NCBI GenBank assembly: GCA_012517325.1
Contig: JAAYVF010000073.1
Location: forward strand, 1 to 64,000
Reading direction: 5' to 3'
Length of the DNA: 64,000 nt
Origin: Myxococcales bacterium
Lineage (GTDB): Bacteria > Lernaellota > Lernaellaia > Lernaellales > Lernaellaceae
Shown here in pieces: positions 7,799 through 16,824 of this stretch. Within the stretch, counting starts at the first letter, position 1. Each line of letters starts with the position of its first letter. Under the pieces are notes generated by a model. The model searched no databases, was not told where the DNA came from, and worked only from the letters and a program-made list of their open reading frames with translations. The position numbers were made by a program, and so were the translations under genes.

Positions 7799-8932
7799 TC
7801 AATTGGCCTTTGCCGTCTCTCGGCGGGAAAATTGCAATTGGTCGCTGTTATTGAGAATGAGTTTGGTTAATTCCTCCGCCGCCAGTGAATGCCCATTCCC
7901 ATTGAAATGCACCGGGTCGACGAACAATTTCTTCCCTTCGCGCTCGGCCGCCAAAAACGCGGGTAACAGATCAAGGAACAACAAATTTTTCTTTTGGCAG
8001 AAGTCCGCCGTCAAGTCGCGGAACGAGTCGTACAGCCGTTCCGAAGGCATGATTTCCCGCGACGGGTCTTTTTCTTGATCCAGCCTGGCATCCAGGATGA
8101 TTTGCGTCAGGTGATAGACCAACAGCAATTTGACGCCGGCTTCCCTGGCGTCGCGCGCGATGTTTTCGAGATCTTCCCTGAAACCGTCCCGGCACCAGGC
8201 CGCTTCCACGCTGAAATCGCCCAACCGCGTCCGGGTCGTTTGGATTTGCGACGCGATCATCGCCCGTTCGCTGCCTTTTATTTCACGTCTCAGCAGGCGA
8301 TAGAGCTTGAGATCGCGCAGGCCGCTTTGCAGTCGAACCAGCAGATTATCCCGCCCTTCGTCGTGCTTTTTTTCCAGTTGGCGAAGGATTTCGATGTTGG
8401 GATCGCTGTTGAACAACACATAAAGAATCACCAAATCCGGCCGGTAGTTGCGTAATTTCCGCTCGAAAAGCAGGCGGTGCGAATAAATTGTCGTGCCGGG
8501 AATGCCGGCATTGAGCACCTCGACCGGCTGCGACGAAGCCGCGCGTAATTTCGTCTCCAAAAGGCGCGGGAACGTTTGCGGCTCGGGAACCAGCACACCG
8601 AAAGCGGTGGAATCGCCCACCGAGATGATCCGATACGCCCCCGCCGGTTTGCGGTCGGCGAATTCGGGTCCGCGAAAGCCGGCGTGGTTGGTCGGATCGT
8701 CCGGTAGGTCGTGGTTGCCGAACGGTACGCGAACCCCCGGCAGGAGTTCGTAGGCCGCTTCGAAAATGTCGGTATAATACCGTTCGGCGGGCGCTTTGGC
8801 CAAACCGGTCAGCCGTAAGGCCATTTCGGCGAGGATGACGAAGCAGAAAAACGCGGCCAGCGAGAAAAGGACTTTATGTCGACAGGAGATCCGGACTCGG
8901 TTTTTTCCAGATGCTGAATTCATTCTCGCCAT
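7799..8932 (-). CDS. Membrane-anchored SGNH/GDSL hydrolase
   Basis: A 377-residue protein with one N-terminal signal anchor (KVLFSLAAFFCFVILAEMAL, residues about 20-39) and a periplasmic SGNH esterase-like domain. Block I is ISVGDSTAFG with the nucleophile Ser, an oxyanion Gly appears in NAGIPGTTIYSHR, and block V is VDPVHFNGNGH with the Asp/His pair. Such proteins add or remove acyl groups on envelope glycans; the substrate is unknown. Two ATGs (8932 and 8923) compete; a GGAG lies just before the first. It is divergent from the sigma-54 activator and is the first gene of the leftward lipid/RNA/division run, 49 bp before plsC. Confidence 0.75.
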   Translation of the reverse strand: MARMNSASGKNRVRISCRHKVLFSLAAFFCFVILAEMALRLTGLAKAPAERYYTDIFEAAYELLPGVRVPFGNHDLPDDPTNHAGFRGPEFADRKPAGAYRIISVGDSTAFGVLVPEPQTFPRLLETKLRAASSQPVEVLNAGIPGTTIYSHRLLFERKLRNYRPDLVILYVLFNSDPNIEILRQLEKKHDEGRDNLLVRLQSGLRDLKLYRLLRREIKGSERAMIASQIQTTRTRLGDFSVEAAWCRDGFREDLENIARDAREAGVKLLLVYHLTQIILDARLDQEKDPSREIMPSERLYDSFRDLTADFCQKKNLLFLDLLPAFLAAEREGKKLFVDPVHFNGNGHSLAAEELTKLILNNSDQLQFSRRETAKAN

Positions 8933-9048
8933 CCGCTCCGCCGACTCCGGTCTTTTGCTGTTCGATCCGCAAAATACACTAGCGTAAACTACGCGGCTAA
9001 AAAAGCTGCTTGTTTGTATTGATTCTGTATCGATCCCCGGCTTTTTTC

Positions 9049-9076
9049 TTGACACTACGTGCCGAAAGTTCATAAG
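9049..9076 (+). promoter_or_regulatory. Candidate sigma-70 promoter for the activator/glycan cluster
   Basis: A perfect -35 TTGACA (9049-9054) is followed after 16 bp by CATAAG (9071-9076, 4 of 6 to the -10 consensus). It lies 50 bp before the ATG of the sigma-54 activator, in the 193-bp divergent gap. A GGGGG ribosome site lies 5 bases before that ATG. Confidence 0.5.
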
Positions 9077-9125
9077 TATGCAGAGGGTCAGTCGGTAAAA
9101 ATGTAAACTTTTCCTGGGGGCACGA

Positions 9126-10097
9126 ATGACCTCCGCCGGCGATGTGTCGGAAATCATCGGCCGTAGCAAACCGATGCAGGATATCCTGCGGTTGGTCGAG
9201 CGCGTGGCGCCCTTCAAATCCACGGTATTGATCGGCGGCGAAAGCGGCACCGGCAAGGAAATCATCGCCCGGGCGATTCACGACAAGAGTCCGCGCCGAA
9301 GCGAACCTTTCGTCGCGGTGAACTGCGGCGCCATTCCCGAGAACCTGATCGAGGCCGAGCTTTTCGGTCACGTCAAAGGCGCCTACACCGGGGCGGTCGC
9401 CACCCGCGAGGGTTTTTTTGAAAAAGCGCAGAAGGGCACGCTGTTTCTCGACGAAATCGGCGACCTGCCGTTGTCGCTGCAGGTGAAAATCCTGCGCGCC
9501 CTGCAGGAAGAGGAGATCGTGCGCGTCGGCGACCGGCGGCCGATCAAGCTCGACATCCGGTTCATCGCGGCGACCAACCGCAACCTGGACCAGGACGTCC
9601 ACGAGGGCCGGTTCCGGGCCGACCTGTTTTACCGGCTGAACGTGGTGAGTATTCAGGTGCCGCCGTTGCGCGAACGGCTCGATGATCTGCCGCTGTTCGT
9701 GCACCACTTCGTGCAGTCGATCTGCCGGCGCCTGGGCAAGCGCCTCGAGGGCGTCAGCCGCGAAGCGATCGGCATGATGCGCAACTACGAATGGCCCGGC
9801 AACATCCGCGAACTGGAAAACGTGCTCGAACAGACCATTTTGATGATGGATGACGACCAGCTCCTTGAACCGCGGCATCTGCCGTTGTTCATGGAGCGCC
9901 GCGGGGCCGAACGCCGCCGCCGCATGTGGGAAGAGGCGCTGGATCGCAAGTTGTCGCTCGACGAATACGCCCGCGAATTCGTCGTCCGTTTTCAGGAACA
10001 GCACACGGAAAAGGAATTGGCGAACTTTCTCGGCATTACCCCCAAAACGCTGTGGGAAAAGCGAAAAAAATGGGGCCTGCCGCGGACGCGCCACTAA
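9126..10097 (+). CDS. Stand-alone sigma-54 enhancer-binding activator
   Basis: An AAA+ bacterial enhancer-binding protein of 323 residues that would remodel sigma-54 RNA polymerase using ATP. Walker A is GESGTGKE (38-45), the sigma-54 contact loop is GAYTGA (85-90, Tyr instead of the usual Phe), Walker B is GTLFLDEIGD (105-114), arginine-finger region FRADLFYRLN, and sensor II NYEWPGNIRELEN. A Fis-like helix-turn-helix closes the protein (TEKELANFLGITPKTLWEKR). There is no N-terminal receiver, GAF or PAS domain, as in PspF-like activators, so control must come from a partner or from expression level. It begins a same-strand series of glycan genes, 6 bp before the fusion gene. I found no clear -24/-12 site in its own upstream region. 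Confidence 0.9.
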   Translation: MTSAGDVSEIIGRSKPMQDILRLVERVAPFKSTVLIGGESGTGKEIIARAIHDKSPRRSEPFVAVNCGAIPENLIEAELFGHVKGAYTGAVATREGFFEKAQKGTLFLDEIGDLPLSLQVKILRALQEEEIVRVGDRRPIKLDIRFIAATNRNLDQDVHEGRFRADLFYRLNVVSIQVPPLRERLDDLPLFVHHFVQSICRRLGKRLEGVSREAIGMMRNYEWPGNIRELENVLEQTILMMDDDQLLEPRHLPLFMERRGAERRRRMWEEALDRKLSLDEYAREFVVRFQEQHTEKELANFLGITPKTLWEKRKKWGLPRTRH

Positions 10098-10103
10098 ACA
10101 ACG

Positions 10104-13100
10104 ATGAAACAGCAACGCGCCGTCGTCGTCACCTGCGCCGCCCAGAACGCGGCCCTCGCCGCCATTCGCAGCCTGCACGACGCGGGTTGGCGGGTGATCG
10201 CAGTCGATCACAACCCGCGGGCGAAGGGGTTCGTCAGCCGGGGATGCGACGAGCGCTGGTTGTCGCCGGTTTCGCCGGCCAGCAAACCGGCCGCCTATGC
10301 CGCCTGGTTGCTGGAGCAGTTGCGCGCCAAACCCGCCGAAGTGCTGGTGCCGGTCACCGACGCGGCGATTTTCGCCCTGTTGCCGCGTCGGGATGAATTG
10401 GAAGCCCTGACGGCCGTGCCGTGGCCGAGCACCGCGGCGCTGGAGGAAGCGGCCGATAAGAACCGCACCTTCGCCCTGGCGGCGGAACTGGGGCTGGCGA
10501 TACCGCCGCAGGTCGTCTGGCGACGCGAGGAACCGTTGCCGCCGGCGATGACGTATCCGACGGTGATCAAGCCCCTGCGCAGCATGATCGACGGCGGCAA
10601 GATCGCGGTCGCCTATGCCGCCGACGAGGCGGAACTGCGCGCGCGCACGGCCGATTGGCCCGCCGCGGCGTTTCCGGTGCTGTTGCAGGAACGCGTGGTG
10701 GGCGCGGGCGAGGGCTATTTCGGCGTCTGGCGGCACGGCGAACCGGTGGTCGAGTGCGCCCATCGCCGGCGGCGCGAAATGCCGCCGTCGGGCGGCGTCA
10801 GCACGCTGCGCGAGGCGATCCCCCTCACCGACGATCTGCGCGAACCCGCCCGCCGGTTGCTCGCGCATTGGCGCTGGCACGGCCCGGCGATGGTCGAATT
10901 CAAGCGCGGCCATGACGGCCGCCCCTACCTGATGGAAGTCAACGGCCGGCTCTGGGGCAGCCTGCAACTGGCGGTGGACGCGGGCATCGACATCCCGCTG
11001 GCCAGCGTGTTGGTGGCGGTCGGCGAATCGGTGCCGCCGATGACCTATCATCCCGGCGTGCGTACGCGCTGGGAATTGGGCGACCTCGACGCGCTGATCA
11101 CTCGGCTGTTCAAACGCGACCGCGACCTGAAACTGCCGCCGAACGCGCTGTCGCGCGGGCGCTGGATTTGGGATTTCGTCGCCGACTTTTTTCGGGCCGG
11201 CGTGCGAACGGAACTGTGGCGGCGCAACGACACCCATCCGTTCTGGCGCGACCTGCGCAACTGGATGGTCAACAAGCGCTGGATGGTCGCCAAACGGGTG
11301 AAAACGCCCGCCGCCACACGGGCGGTGTCGCACCTTCATTCGACGATCAGCTACGACGGCGAGATGTCGGTCGCCGCGATCGCGACCTTGCTGCACCTGC
11401 GCGGCGTCCACGTCGGTTTGATCGCCGAGCACGTCAACAACCTGACCCAGGCCGACGTCGACCGGCTGGCCGCCGAATGCCGGCGGTACAGCGAGGCCGA
11501 CCTCTTGCTCGTGCCCGGCCTGGAATTCGCGACGGCCGAGGGCTGCCACGTGCTCGGCCTGGGTTGCGCGAAGCTGATTGAGGAAACCGACCCGGCCCGG
11601 CTGACCGCAGCGATTCGCGCCGCCGGCGGGCTGGCGGTGCTGGCGCATCCGCATTCGGAATGCCTGACCGCCGATTCGCCTCTGGTGCGCTCGCTGGACG
11701 GCGTGGAAATCTGGAACACGATGCACGACGGCGCTTACGTGCCCAATCCGCAAAGCGTCGACCGCTGGCTGGAACTCGGGCGCCGCGGGATCGACCTGGC
11801 GCCGCTGCACGGCAACGATTTTCATTGCCGCGATCATTTCAAACGCCCGCGGCTGGAATTTCCGGACCTGAAGGAACGGCCGCTCGATTGGCCGACGGTG
11901 CGCGAGGCGATTCGCGCCCGCCGTTACCGGCTGTCCAACGACTGGCTGCAAGTGCCGGCCGACCGGCGGCTGGCCTGGTGGAATCCGCTTTTCCACTTGC
12001 TCAAGGCGGCGCAGCGGACGGTTTCGAAACTGAAGCAGCGCTTGACCGCGGGCCGGGTGACGCCGTGCTGGGAATACCTCGGGTGTGAAGCGGACGCCTG
12101 CTGCGTGGCGCGCGAACAAGGATCGTCGGGCCTGCAGTGCTGGCGGATCGTCGGCACGTTCGCCGGCCAGGACCGCCGCGGGCCCTGCTGCCGCCACCTC
12201 CCCGATTGCCGCGAGTGCGAGTATTACCGGTTCCGCAACGCGCCCGGCGACGCCGGTCGGCCGCGCCGGATTCTGCATCTGATCGAGACGGTCAATCCGG
12301 GCGGCGCCGAGTTGATGATGCTCAACCTGATCGGCGCGCTGGACCGGCGGCGGTACACCAGCCACGTCGTGCTGATCAAGCACGGATGGTTGGAAACGCG
12401 GTTGCGCGAAATGGGAGTGCCGGTCACGGTGCTGCCGCTGCAACGGAAGCTGGATTGGCGATTCGCCCGGGCGGTGGCGCGCCTGGCCCGCCGCCGGCAT
12501 TTCGATCTGCTGCACAGCCACGAATTCACCATGAACGGCTATGCCTTTTTCGCCGGCCGGCTGGCGCGCAAGGCGACGGTCGCCACGGTGCACGGCAATC
12601 TGGAGTACCTCGCCCAGAAGCGCCGCCGGCAATGGTTCTATTGGTGGATCGCCGGCCGCTCCGGCCCGATGGTGACGGTCAGCGAGGAACTCAAGCGGCG
12701 GTTGTCGGCGGACTTCAAGCTGTCGGCCGAGCGGTTGACGGTGATTCACAACGGCGTGGCGCTTCCCGCCGCGGAGCCCGACGCGGCCCGGCGGCGCGAG
12801 CTGCGCGGCGAACTGGGCCTGCCCGCGGACGCGACGCTCCTGGGGGTGATCGGGCGGTTGCATCCGGTCAAAGGGCAGGACGTCCTGCTGGCCGCGCTGC
12901 CGGAACTGCGCGCCCGTTTTCCGCGCGTCCACCTGGGCATTGTCGGGCAGGGCCTGCAACAGCCGTTTCTGGCCGAACGGGTTCGCGAACTGGGCCTGAC
13001 CGACGCCGTGACCTTCGCCGGTTACCGCGAAAATATCCGCGAATACCTCGGCGCTTTCGATTTGATCGTCGTGCCCAGCCGGTACGAGGGCTTGTCGCTG

Positions 13101-13376
13101 TTGCTGATCGAAGCGATGGCGGCCGGGCGGCCGATCGTGGCGACGCGGGTCGGCGGCAATCCCGAAGCGATCGCCGACGGTGTTTCCGGGCTGCTGGTGC
13201 CGCCGGACGATCCTGCCGCGCTGGCGGCGGCCGCCGGGCGGATTCTCGGCGATCCGGAACTGGCCGCGGGTCTGGGCCGCGCCGCCCGGGCCCGGGCGGA
13301 AGAGAGTTTCAGCATCGCCGCCATGCTGGCGGCTTACGACGAATTGTATCGACGCAAAATGGAGCAGCGTTCATGA
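10104..13376 (+). CDS. ATP-grasp / PHP / Cys-rich / GT4 glycosyltransferase fusion
   Basis: One continuous 1090-residue frame with four parts. Residues 1-400 are an ATP-grasp ligase: an N-terminal Rossmann-like VVVTCAAQNAALAAIRSLHD, the core YPTVIKPLRS and the metal site YLMEVNGRLWGS. Residues about 410-620 are a PHP domain with HLHSTISYDG, IAEHVN, VLAHPHSE and HGNDFHCRDHF, metal ligands of phosphoesterases of this fold. Residues about 655-712 hold a Cys-rich segment starting CWEYLGCEADACC with a second CW and a CRHLPDCRECEYY end, resembling two-CW metal-binding motifs. Residues 721-1090 are a GT4 (GT-B fold) transferase with NPGGAELMMLNL and the EX7E motif EGLSLLLIE. It might ligate, trim and glycosylate one acceptor, which is inference. 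Its stop overlaps the next ATG (ATGA). Confidence 0.85.
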   Translation: MKQQRAVVVTCAAQNAALAAIRSLHDAGWRVIAVDHNPRAKGFVSRGCDERWLSPVSPASKPAAYAAWLLEQLRAKPAEVLVPVTDAAIFALLPRRDELEALTAVPWPSTAALEEAADKNRTFALAAELGLAIPPQVVWRREEPLPPAMTYPTVIKPLRSMIDGGKIAVAYAADEAELRARTADWPAAAFPVLLQERVVGAGEGYFGVWRHGEPVVECAHRRRREMPPSGGVSTLREAIPLTDDLREPARRLLAHWRWHGPAMVEFKRGHDGRPYLMEVNGRLWGSLQLAVDAGIDIPLASVLVAVGESVPPMTYHPGVRTRWELGDLDALITRLFKRDRDLKLPPNALSRGRWIWDFVADFFRAGVRTELWRRNDTHPFWRDLRNWMVNKRWMVAKRVKTPAATRAVSHLHSTISYDGEMSVAAIATLLHLRGVHVGLIAEHVNNLTQADVDRLAAECRRYSEADLLLVPGLEFATAEGCHVLGLGCAKLIEETDPARLTAAIRAAGGLAVLAHPHSECLTADSPLVRSLDGVEIWNTMHDGAYVPNPQSVDRWLELGRRGIDLAPLHGNDFHCRDHFKRPRLEFPDLKERPLDWPTVREAIRARRYRLSNDWLQVPADRRLAWWNPLFHLLKAAQRTVSKLKQRLTAGRVTPCWEYLGCEADACCVAREQGSSGLQCWRIVGTFAGQDRRGPCCRHLPDCRECEYYRFRNAPGDAGRPRRILHLIETVNPGGAELMMLNLIGALDRRRYTSHVVLIKHGWLETRLREMGVPVTVLPLQRKLDWRFARAVARLARRRHFDLLHSHEFTMNGYAFFAGRLARKATVATVHGNLEYLAQKRRRQWFYWWIAGRSGPMVTVSEELKRRLSADFKLSAERLTVIHNGVALPAAEPDAARRRELRGELGLPADATLLGVIGRLHPVKGQDVLLAALPELRARFPRVHLGIVGQGLQQPFLAERVRELGLTDAVTFAGYRENIREYLGAFDLIVVPSRYEGLSLLLIEAMAAGRPIVATRVGGNPEAIADGVSGLLVPPDDPAALAAAAGRILGDPELAAGLGRAARARAEESFSIAAMLAAYDELYRRKMEQRS

Positions 13377-14524
13377 TCTGGCCCTGGCTGGCGATGTGGC
13401 TCATCGGGCTGGCGGCGTTCGCCTTCCCGTACGCGATTTATCCGTGGTTGCTCGGCCGGCGCGGTGCCCGTTACGCGGTCGGGCAGACCGTCACCCCGGA
13501 AAAGTGGCCCGCCGTTTCGGTGATTCTGGCCGCCTTCAACGCCGAGGACCGAATCGAGGCGAAAATCGCTGAACTGCTGAAACTGGAATACCCCGGCCAA
13601 GTGGAAATCGTCGTGGTGGACGACGGCAGCACCGACCGCACGGCGATCCGCGCCAAGGCGGCCGGAGCGCACCAGGTGCTGCGGCTGCCGGAACGCAGCG
13701 GCAAGAGCGAGGCGCAGAACGCCGGCGTCCAGAGCGCGCGGGGCGAGGTGCTGGTGTTCACCGATGTTTCGGTGGTCGTCCGCGAAAACGCGTTGCGGCA
13801 ATTGATTCCGGCGCTGCTGGTCGAAGGCGTGGGCTGCGTGACGGGCGTGGACGTGTCGGTGGCGGGCGCGGCGGGCGATCCGGCGCAGGAGGCCGGATTT
13901 TATACCCGGTTCGAGATCGCGCTCCGACGCCGGGAGGCCGAGGCGGGGACGCTGTTCGGGGTCAACGGCTGTCTGTTCGCGATCCGCAAAGCGCATCGGG
14001 CCCCCGTGCCGCGTGACTGCGTCGACGACCTGTACGTGCCCCTGGCCGTGCAGGACCGCGGCCTGCGCGTCGCGCTGCAACCCAAGGCCGAGGCCGTGGT
14101 CTTTCGCCCGCAAAGCCTGGCCGAGGAATACCGGCGCAAGGTGCGGACCTTCACCGGCGGTCTGTTCACCCTGCGGCGCGCGATGGACGATCTGCCGCGG
14201 GCCTACCGCCGTTTGCGTTGGCGGCTGATCGGCCACAAATGGCTGCGCTGGCTGGGGCCGTTCTTTCTGCTCCTGGCCTTCTACGGCAGCATCGGGCTGG
14301 TCCGGCGTTCGGCGCTGGGCTGGCCGATCGTCATTCTCGAGGCGCTGTGGCTGGCGCTCGCGCTGCTGGGCACGATCCGGACCGGCGCGGGGCGGCCGAC
14401 CTCGCGGGTGGTGCGATTGGCGGCCTTCATCCTGTGGGTCCAGGCGGCGCTGCTTCATGCCTGGTGGCGGTTGGCGACCGATCGCCCCTTCGTCGTTTGG
14501 CGGCCGACGCGGCGAGGTCTGTGA
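13373..14524 (+). CDS. GT2 family membrane glycosyltransferase
   Basis: A processive-type GT2 enzyme of 383 residues. There is one N-terminal membrane segment (residues 3-22), a cytoplasmic GT-A domain with SVILAAFNAEDRI, VVVDDGSTDRT and VFTDVSV, the acid motif CVDDLYVPLA, a KVRTFTGGLF segment in the acceptor region, and three C-terminal hydrophobic segments. It would use a nucleotide sugar at the inner membrane face. Product sugar is unknown. The ATG at 13373 overlaps the preceding stop by 4 bp and it abuts the next gene directly, so translation is likely coupled. Confidence 0.85.
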   Translation: MIWPWLAMWLIGLAAFAFPYAIYPWLLGRRGARYAVGQTVTPEKWPAVSVILAAFNAEDRIEAKIAELLKLEYPGQVEIVVVDDGSTDRTAIRAKAAGAHQVLRLPERSGKSEAQNAGVQSARGEVLVFTDVSVVVRENALRQLIPALLVEGVGCVTGVDVSVAGAAGDPAQEAGFYTRFEIALRRREAEAGTLFGVNGCLFAIRKAHRAPVPRDCVDDLYVPLAVQDRGLRVALQPKAEAVVFRPQSLAEEYRRKVRTFTGGLFTLRRAMDDLPRAYRRLRWRLIGHKWLRWLGPFFLLLAFYGSIGLVRRSALGWPIVILEALWLALALLGTIRTGAGRPTSRVVRLAAFILWVQAALLHAWWRLATDRPFVVWRPTRRGL

Positions 14525-15646
14525 ATGATCCGCTTGCTGCTCATCGCCGAAGGCGCCCGCTTCGCCGGCATCGAAGGCCATCTGGTGACCCTGCTGCGCG
14601 CGCTGCCCGCCGACGAGGTCGCGCCGCAATTGGCGGTATTCAATCGCGGCCCCCTGGCCGAACGCGTCGCGGCGCTCGGCGTGCCGGTGCATTTCATCGA
14701 ACGCCAGACCAAGTATGATCCCGGCGCGATCCGCCGCGTGGCGCGACTGGTCGCGGAGACCGGCACCGGGATCGTCCATACGCACGGCTACCTGGCCAAC
14801 GTGATCGCCGCCCGGGCGCTGGCCGACGGCCGCGTGCCGCTGGTCACGACGGTGCACGGCGCGCCCGAACCGTTCGGCGGCTGGGCCGGTTTGAAGATGA
14901 AAATCAACCTGGCGCTCGATCGCCGGGCGATGAAACGGGTTTGCCGGCGGGTCATCGTGGTGGCGACCCATCTGGCGGAGGCGTTGGCGCAACAGGGCGT
15001 GCCGGCCGAAAAGATCAAGGTCATTTACAACGGGTTGCCGCCGTGGAGCGCCGAATCCGCGCAACGTTACCAAAGCCGCGGCCGGTTGGACCTGGCGCCC
15101 GACGCCCTGGCTGTCGCGTTCGTCGGCCGGCTCGAGCCGGTGAAGGATCCGCTGGCGTTCGTCGAATTCGCCCACCTGGTGCACGATTACCATCCGAACA
15201 CCACGTTTTTAGTCGCGGGCCACGGGCCGCTGCAGGAAGCCATGTGCCGGCGGGTCCAGGAACTCGGTTTGTTGCCGCACGTGCGGTTCCTCGGTTTCGT
15301 GGACGACATGGATTCGCTGCTGGCGGCCGCCGACCTACTGGTGCTGACCAGCCGTCACGAGGGCATTCCGTTCGCGGCGCTGGAAGCCATGCGAGCGGGG
15401 GTGCCGGTCGTCGCGCCGGCCGTGGGCGGTTTGCCGGAACTGCTGGGCGGTTTGGACGGTTTGCTGTCGCCGGCGCACGATGTACGGCAACTGGCGGCGC
15501 TGGCCGTTCGCCTGCTCGGCGACCGGCCGCGCTTGGCCCAGGCCGGCGCGGAAGTCACGGCTCGTTTCGACGAGCGGTTCACGGCCGCCGGAATGGTGGA
15601 AAAACTGCTCGGCGTTTACCGGGAAATCCTCGCGGAGGTCGCGTGA
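14525..15646 (+). CDS. GT4 family glycosyltransferase
   Basis: A 373-residue GT-B fold retaining glycosyltransferase. The N-terminal acceptor half has GARFAGIEGHLVTLLRAL and VHTHGYLANVIAARAL; the donor half has VAFVGRLEPVKDP, VAGHGPLQEAM and the EX7E motif in SRHEGIPFAALEAMRAG. These enzymes use nucleotide sugars to extend lipid-linked glycans. It is cytoplasmic with no membrane segment. The ATG follows the previous stop without a spacer, and the next gene starts at a GTG overlapping its TGA. Donor sugar cannot be told. Confidence 0.88.
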   Translation: MIRLLLIAEGARFAGIEGHLVTLLRALPADEVAPQLAVFNRGPLAERVAALGVPVHFIERQTKYDPGAIRRVARLVAETGTGIVHTHGYLANVIAARALADGRVPLVTTVHGAPEPFGGWAGLKMKINLALDRRAMKRVCRRVIVVATHLAEALAQQGVPAEKIKVIYNGLPPWSAESAQRYQSRGRLDLAPDALAVAFVGRLEPVKDPLAFVEFAHLVHDYHPNTTFLVAGHGPLQEAMCRRVQELGLLPHVRFLGFVDDMDSLLAAADLLVLTSRHEGIPFAALEAMRAGVPVVAPAVGGLPELLGGLDGLLSPAHDVRQLAALAVRLLGDRPRLAQAGAEVTARFDERFTAAGMVEKLLGVYREILAEVA

Positions 15647-16824
15647 TTCTCTGGCATGTTGGGTTGACGTTGTTTTCGCTGCTGCTGTTGCTGGCGGCCA
15701 TCCGCTACGCGTTTTTCGCGATCTTGTCGCGCGTGCAGCCGCCGCCCGTCTTACCGCCGCGGGCTGCCGCGACCCGCTTCTGCGTGCTCGTCCCGGCGCA
15801 CAACGAAGGCGCGAACGTCCGGGCCACCGTCGAGGCGGCGCGCCGCTTCACCTATCCGGCCGACCGGTTTCGCGTCGTCGTGCTGGTGGACAACTGCGAC
15901 GACGACACCGCCGCCCAGGCGCGGGACGCGGGCGCCGAGACGATCGAGCGGCGGCAGCCGGAAGCGCCGGGCAAGGGGCAGGCGGTCGCGTGGGCGATCG
16001 CCAACCATCTGCGGCCAGACGAGGCGCTGGTCATCTGCGACGCCGACAGCCGGCCCGCTCCCGATTACCTGGATTGGATGAACCGGGCGCTGGCCTCCGG
16101 TTACGGGGCGGCGCAGGGTTTCAACGGCTCGGCCAACCCCGAGGAAAGCGGGCTGGCCGCGCTGGCCGCGGTGACCAGCGGCATGAAAAACGCCTTCCAT
16201 TACACCGGCAAGACGGCCGCCGGACTGCCCGCGCCGTTAATGAACGGCCTGACCCTCGCCGCCGCGACGTGGCATGCCCATCCGTGGCGGGCGTTTTCGA
16301 TCGTCGAGGATTTCGAAACCTACCTGAATCTGGTCGCCGCGGGAGTGCCGATCCGCTTCGTGCCCGAGGCGAAAATCCTCAGCCCCCGGGCGAGCGGTTT
16401 CCGGGCGGCTTCCTCGCAGAAGCAACGCTGGAGCGGCGGCCAAAGCAAACTGGCGCGCGAAGTCGCCTGGCCGCTGGCCCGGCGGGGGCTGCGCGAGTGG
16501 TCGTGGGCCAAGCTGAGCGCCGCGCTCGACTTGCTGGCGCCGGGCTACGCGCCGACCACGGCCTGGCTGCTAATCACGGCGATCGTCGGCCGATGGTCGT
16601 TCGGGCCCACGGCTCATCCGGCCGTCGGTCTGGCGCTGGCGGGATTGCTGTTGATGGGCGGGCAGTTCGTCGCCGGCCTGGCGCGCCTGCGCTGGACGCC
16701 GCGCCTGGCGCTGGCGGTCCTGCTGGCGCCGGTGTATCTGGTTTGGAAAATGGCGCTTTCGCTGCGGGCGTTCCGGCGCGCGCCCGACCGCTGGCAGCGG
16801 TCCGCGCGGCCCGGGGACGAATAG
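15643..16824 (+). CDS. GT2 family glycosyltransferase, IcaA/NodC-like layout
   Basis: A 393-residue membrane GT2. One N-terminal segment (residues 2-27), then the GT-A domain with CVLVPAHNEGANV, VVLVDNCDDDT, the DxD site ICDADS, the catalytic IVEDFETYL, and the QxxRW-like motif QKQRWSGGQ, which is typical of processive synthases. Three or four C-terminal hydrophobic segments follow. The start is a GTG at 15643 within GTGA, overlapping the previous stop, with GGAGG upstream. It is the last gene of the rightward glycan cluster and meets the SRPBCC gene tail to tail after 9 bp. The polymer is unknown. Confidence 0.86.
   Translation: MILWHVGLTLFSLLLLLAAIRYAFFAILSRVQPPPVLPPRAAATRFCVLVPAHNEGANVRATVEAARRFTYPADRFRVVVLVDNCDDDTAAQARDAGAETIERRQPEAPGKGQAVAWAIANHLRPDEALVICDADSRPAPDYLDWMNRALASGYGAAQGFNGSANPEESGLAALAAVTSGMKNAFHYTGKTAAGLPAPLMNGLTLAAATWHAHPWRAFSIVEDFETYLNLVAAGVPIRFVPEAKILSPRASGFRAASSQKQRWSGGQSKLAREVAWPLARRGLREWSWAKLSAALDLLAPGYAPTTAWLLITAIVGRWSFGPTAHPAVGLALAGLLLMGGQFVAGLARLRWTPRLALAVLLAPVYLVWKMALSLRAFRRAPDRWQRSARPGDE

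Follow-up and report, generated by a model that had tools for sequence, protein, structure and literature searches.

An ATP-grasp, PHP and GT4 fusion protein from a candidate EPS-type operon, and the apparently interchangeable phosphatase partners of its ATP-grasp family

Phosphatases described from polysaccharide loci include the LMW-PTPs Wzb and Etp of Wzx/Wzy capsule loci and the PHP proteins CpsB, YwqE and Php1. The LMW-PTPs of EPS loci are usually taken to act on BY-kinases. For the PRK06849/PRK12767 group of carbamoyl-phosphate-synthase (CPSase)-like ATP-grasp proteins we know of no characterised member. In P. gingivalis, the PHP protein Php1 and the LMW-PTP Ltp1 both dephosphorylate the BY-kinase Ptk1, and Php1 activity requires an arginine in motif III (H-x-x-R) (PMC6759763). 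In the open-licence literature we found no description of an ATP-grasp protein associated with a PHP protein or an LMW-PTP in polysaccharide loci. Here we describe a gene in the window (the whole stretch of 64,000 nucleotides that was analysed) in which ATP-grasp, PHP, Cys-rich and GT4 parts are fused. The gene, its parts and its neighbours are as follows.

9126..10097, + strand: sigma-54 activator, directly upstream of the fusion (PF00158, 2.4e-72)
10104..13376, + strand: fused gene (ATP-grasp, PHP, two-CW, GT4), a single frame of 1090 aa with uniform codon-position GC
10104..11288, + strand: ATP-grasp part, residues 1-395 (PF15632, PRK06849; profile and model matches to 2pn1 and CPSase)
11316..11963, + strand: PHP metallophosphoesterase part, residues ~405-620 (NF038032, 5e-15; profile matches to 2anu and 7ug9; model)
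12054..12239, + strand: two-CW Cys-rich insert, residues 651-712 (weak NF045718 match; only in this family's fusions)
12264..13373, + strand: GT4 glycosyltransferase part, residues 721-1090 (PF13692, 1.7e-40; EX7E)
13373..14524, + strand: GT2 glycosyltransferase (PF00535, 3.4e-20; 4-base ATGA overlap with the end of the fusion)
14525..15646, + strand: second GT4 glycosyltransferase (PF13692, 6e-31)
15643..16824 (start approximate), + strand: GT2 glycosyltransferase, EpsU-like (PF13641, 4.8e-19)

An earlier sequence-only reading had proposed one uninterrupted frame with the four parts, and this is borne out, with 10104-13376 (1090 codons) as the correct coordinates. The catalytic residues expected of the ATP-grasp, PHP and GT4 enzymes are all found in the 1090-aa protein. 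GC content by codon position is ~0.7/0.5/0.85 in each 109-codon block of 10104-13376(+), and this constancy over all blocks gives no hint of a shift in frame where the domains meet. It is thus exceedingly improbable that separate genes were joined through an assembly or sequencing error; the source genome is a draft of 134 contigs, but fused frames are present in four other genomes from independent assemblies. We rejected an assembly artefact because of this recurrence; the fusion is genuine and has been conserved.

A search for the same order in other genomes found G001 and G002, both of the same family, with the four parts likewise fused in a single frame (55% identity). The four-part combination is therefore not a one-off. 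Two further members of the class, G004 and G005, fuse ATP-grasp, PHP and GT4 but lack the Cys-rich part. In a further genome of the class, G006, the fusion is split; both of its fusion loci (L043, L046 and L057, on G006:C12 and G006:C2) are broken over several frames, which suggests indel errors in its assembly more than a pair of pseudogenes. In the GT4 tree the five fused parts group as a single clade (SH-aLRT 95.9), making a single fusion event the simplest reading, and the fusion probably arose once.

Nine loci from Gemmatimonadota, Acidobacteriota and Zixibacteria (L062, L065, L079, L082, L096, L113, L115, L123 and L131) carry ATP-grasp, PHP and GT4 as separate genes on the same strand. 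Their domain starts are offset by 0 (ATP-grasp), ~1.2 kb (PHP) and ~1.96 kb (GT4), near the spacing in the fused gene; at L070, L081 and L111 the order differs (ATP-grasp, GT4, PHP). The fusion is thus a welded operon. Three consecutive genes, for an ATP-grasp ligase, a PHP phosphoesterase and a GT4, would have been joined in an ancestor of this class, and one family would have acquired the two-CW insert, unless the other lost it. G005 and G004 also encode a second ATP-grasp–PHP fusion without GT4 (L044:8739-11339(+) and L045:10051-12492(+)). In this paralogue the HxH metal site of the PHP part is lost, and it is possibly a pseudoenzyme that retains the fold without catalysis.

The ATP-grasp and PHP parts were aligned as separate domain models. 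PF15632 matches residues 1-390 over its cut-off (1.6e-9), PRK06849 (carbamoyl-phosphate-synthase-like) matches at 2.3e-16, and the profile of the ATP-grasp family finds the CPSase-like structure 2pn1 (1.8e-14). The AlphaFold2 model of this part (pLDDT 94) has fold matches that include 2pn1, CPSase and PylC. K119, K156, E265, E278 and N280 are invariant in 44 ATP-grasp members and present in the window protein, which has the fold, the nucleotide-binding lysines and the Mg-binding Glu/Asn of the superfamily. In fold, catalytic residues and length the part is like the PRK06849/PRK12767 proteins (PF15632 region; 2pn1), but it scores far under their equivalog cut-offs and, unlike them, is fused to PHP and GT4.

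The Pfam PHP model has no match in the window protein and reaches 1.7e-5 on one relative. Because Pfam is blind to this part, a family profile was needed; it finds TM0559 (2anu, 9e-17) and RNase AM/YciV (7ug9, 3e-13). Profile searches thus reach known structures for both the ATP-grasp and the PHP part, as the sequence-only reading would lead one to expect. The model of the PHP part (pLDDT 90) has 2anu as its top fold match (E 1.8e-10). The metal ligands in the window are H410, H412, H443, E474, H482, H515, D572 and H574, and this set (HxH, H, E, H, H, DxH) is kept across the PHP family; the part has both the distorted TIM barrel and the metal ligands of the PHP superfamily. By sequence and modelled fold it groups with TM0559 and RNase AM/YciV, not with CpsB/YwqE. 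It has its fold and metal ligands in common with TM0559 (2anu) and RNase AM/YciV (7ug9, 9etk) at ~18-23% identity, and differs from them in lying, within one fused protein, between a ligase and a transferase.

Neither CpsB nor YwqE is among the profile matches (E<=0.01) or the fold matches (E<=0.001). The motif-III arginine is not conserved across the PHP family, and the window protein has a Ser at H+3. A tyrosine phosphatase of the CpsB/YwqE type was rejected on both counts. The analogy with these proteins drawn in the sequence-only reading may hold as a functional likeness at best: a phosphatase role is backed by the swap with LMW-PTP and DSP described below, but the PHP part falls with TM0559 and RNase AM and lacks the arginine. 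What it has in common with CpsB, YwqE and Php1 is the PHP fold, an EPS-type gene context and exchange with LMW-PTP; in contrast to these, the window-type PHP is coupled to an ATP-grasp, not to a BY-kinase.

The best named model for the PHP part is CehA/McbA (NF038032), and the part could accordingly be another kind of hydrolase, one that cleaves an amide or ester in the manner of CehA/McbA and so edits what the ligase makes. The score is below the cut-off of that model, however, and recurrent replacement by true phosphatases points to phosphate removal, so we consider an editing hydrolase very improbable.

The Cys-rich part has nine cysteines in residues 655-705, where the two-CW model NF045718 matches weakly (E 1.7e-5, 25.1 bits, against a cut-off of 35 bits). 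The first CW cysteine is missing from the G001 copy, and the part is absent from the same-class fusions (G004, G005); none of the other ATP-grasp loci that were searched has it either. It appears to be a lineage-specific insert with eroding cysteines. The Cys-rich segment of the sequence-only reading is present in the frame, but it matches two-CW weakly and occurs in one family only. Since it is so limited and eroding, the module does not depend on it, and a general role for it was rejected on the same grounds.

The GT4 part is complete, with both Rossmann halves (PF13439, PF13692) and the EX7E motif at E995-E1003. Its top named family is TIGR03088 (PEP-CTERM/XrtA system glycosyltransferase, stp2), which at 204.8 bits outscores MshA and BshA by a wide margin and yet is far below the 409-bit cut-off of that model. 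Unlike the PEP-CTERM/XrtA systems, the host genome of the window has no exosortase; PF09721 was sought in it and in its class relatives and was absent. An exosortase is present in 15/15 other sampled genomes reached via ATP-grasp loci from a PHP-containing query, and an XrtA-system deacetylase, over its cut-off, is one neighbour at ATP-grasp loci. Over a broad genome sample the enrichment is modest (9/28 vs 51/358, p 0.018). Since the window genome and its class lack exosortase, the module is independent of it.

Downstream of the fusion, the EpsU model NF041865 matches the GT2 at 15643..16824 at 5e-53, below its cut-off, and the window locus looks like a small five-gene EPS-type operon. The sigma-54 activator at 9126-10097(+) has an AAA+ domain and a weak Fis-type HTH match; a sensor domain was sought in it and none was found. 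At its 5' end it shares bases with a GDSL-hydrolase frame on the opposite strand (7799-9265). Elsewhere in the same genome, a 1651-aa open frame (G000:C85:103921-107862, L007) has GT4 part matches at four places and appears to be a multi-GT4 protein; it lies ~6 kb from a BY-kinase-type gene (C85:97169).

Across genomes, the ATP-grasp family appears to be the hub of the module, with an interchangeable phosphatase partner. In many loci of Nitrospira the ATP-grasp gene is followed not by PHP but by a gene for an LMW-PTP (PF01451) with an intact CxGNxCRS motif. G030 (L047) and L097 keep the plan of the separate genes but with another phosphatase, running ATP-grasp, LMW-PTP, GT4. In Nitrospira and others an LMW-PTP as in Wzb/Etp occupies the same position by the same ATP-grasp, although its fold is unrelated to that of the window PHP and its catalytic mechanism is different. 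Further partners are fused to the ATP-grasp.

L088:9971-11857(+), L100:9905-11770(+) and L125:9917-11776(+): ATP-grasp with a C-terminal LMW-PTP, first clade
L175:1405-3219(+), L176:958-2823(-) and L177:1015-2736(-): ATP-grasp with a C-terminal LMW-PTP, second, distant clade
L182:1468-3132(+): ATP-grasp with a dual-specificity phosphatase (DSP), HCRQGISR motif intact
L109:9245-12364(+) and L124:9980-12292(+): ATP-grasp with a FemAB-type GNAT (PF13480), Acidobacteria

A FemAB-type GNAT, as in the last two fusions, is often the upstream neighbour of the ATP-grasp elsewhere.

Co-occurrence was counted at 108 non-redundant ATP-grasp loci, most of them from metagenome assemblies, and a partner had to lie no more than 9 kb away on the strand of the ATP-grasp. 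We made our own gene calls and built the profiles for PHP, PTP, GNAT and BY-kinase from small seeds. PHP is near the ATP-grasp at 26/108 loci and LMW-PTP at 28/108, with both at 0/108. At the remaining 54/108 neither lies within 9 kb, although where contigs are short the genome may still have one; a phosphatase is thus not obligatory in the operon. The Fisher p for non-overlap is 1e-4 with no correction for kinship; kinship makes the exclusivity look stronger than it is, and the non-overlap is due in part to phylogeny. On the ATP-grasp tree the label changes ~10 times for PHP and ~12 times for PTP. One set of loci favours PHP because its query contained the PHP part; an ATP-grasp-only query returned, in 23 genomes outside the class, 5 PHP, 6 LMW-PTP and 1 DSP as neighbour or fusion. 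The likeliest reading is that PHP occupies a slot for phosphatases in glycan assembly, and the pattern suggests phosphate removal as an unrecognised shared step at this ligase.

LMW-PTP and DSP enzymes act mostly on phosphoproteins, which counts against a metabolite as the substrate in this slot. The partner could instead be a regulatory phosphatase which, like Wzb, CpsB or Php1, acts on a tyrosine-phosphorylated EPS protein (a BY-kinase or its targets) and, through its fusion with the ligase and transferase, ties phosphorylation state to precursor supply. Two of the three swapped types, LMW-PTP and DSP, are classic tyrosine-phosphatase folds, strong matches of BY-kinase type are found in 7/7 genomes of the class, and Php1 and Ltp1 act on one BY-kinase, Ptk1, in P. 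gingivalis (PMC6759763). The phosphatase gene, however, adjoins the ATP-grasp and not BY-kinase genes, which occur at 10/71 loci and lie 7-12 kb off where a phosphatase is also found. Together with the grouping of the PHP part with TM0559/RNase AM and the unconserved Php1 arginine (Ser at H+3 in the window), this makes a regulatory phosphatase possible but rather unlikely. We therefore modestly favour a phosphorylated metabolite over a phosphotyrosine protein as substrate, both because the phosphatase gene follows the ATP-grasp and because the PHP part is not of the CpsB/YwqE type and lacks the arginine.

Neighbours at ATP-grasp loci include GT2, GT4, Wzy_C, FemAB-type GNAT, deacetylase and aminotransferase genes. 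Mycothiol is made by a GT4 that attaches a sugar to an acceptor bearing a phosphate, followed by a phosphatase, an amino-acid ligase and a GNAT. The same kinds of enzyme (GT4, phosphatase, ATP-grasp ligase, FemAB-type GNAT and deacetylase) occur together here, so that the product could be a small glycoside made in the same way, by GT4 transfer to a phosphorylated acceptor, dephosphorylation, ATP-dependent ligation and GNAT acetylation. Wzy_C, several GT2/GT4 genes and EPS-type neighbours would be superfluous for such a product, though, and the GT4 part is closest to TIGR03088, with MshA and BshA well below. We regard a small glycoside as improbable.

Sequence comparisons establish the domains with their catalytic residues, the origin of the fusion from an operon, and the interchange of PHP with other phosphatases beside or fused to the same ATP-grasp; we give about an even chance to the function that they would serve together: a three-enzyme fusion from an EPS-type glycan assembly operon, its genes welded, that performs ATP-grasp ligation, phosphate removal by PHP and transfer by GT4. 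The ATP-grasp part would spend ATP on joining a carboxylate to a glycan precursor through an amine or similar group. The PHP part, presumably in the role that LMW-PTP and DSP parts have elsewhere, would take phosphate off the substrate or product of the ligase step before the GT4 part adds a sugar to the lipid-linked repeat unit as it grows. With the three fused, an intermediate that is phosphorylated or unstable would stay inside one complex. The suggestion of the sequence-only reading that ligation is coupled to glycan assembly on one scaffold is backed by the family searches, models, operon order and EPS-type neighbours. As that reading also proposed, the ligase may link an amino acid to a sugar.

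More tentatively, and at less than even probability, we propose that the window protein is the most integrated form of an undescribed polysaccharide-assembly module found in many phyla, in which the ATP-grasp is, in many lineages, paired with a phosphomonoesterase of one of three unrelated folds (PHP, LMW-PTP, DSP) and may make or use a novel phosphorylated glycan intermediate. The fusion links three gene families that databases annotate apart and vaguely. Three unrelated phosphatases swapped beside the same ligase lead to the specific prediction that phosphate removal is needed at this step. If the phosphatase partner acts on a metabolite, the assumption that the LMW-PTPs of EPS loci act on BY-kinases would fail for this set.
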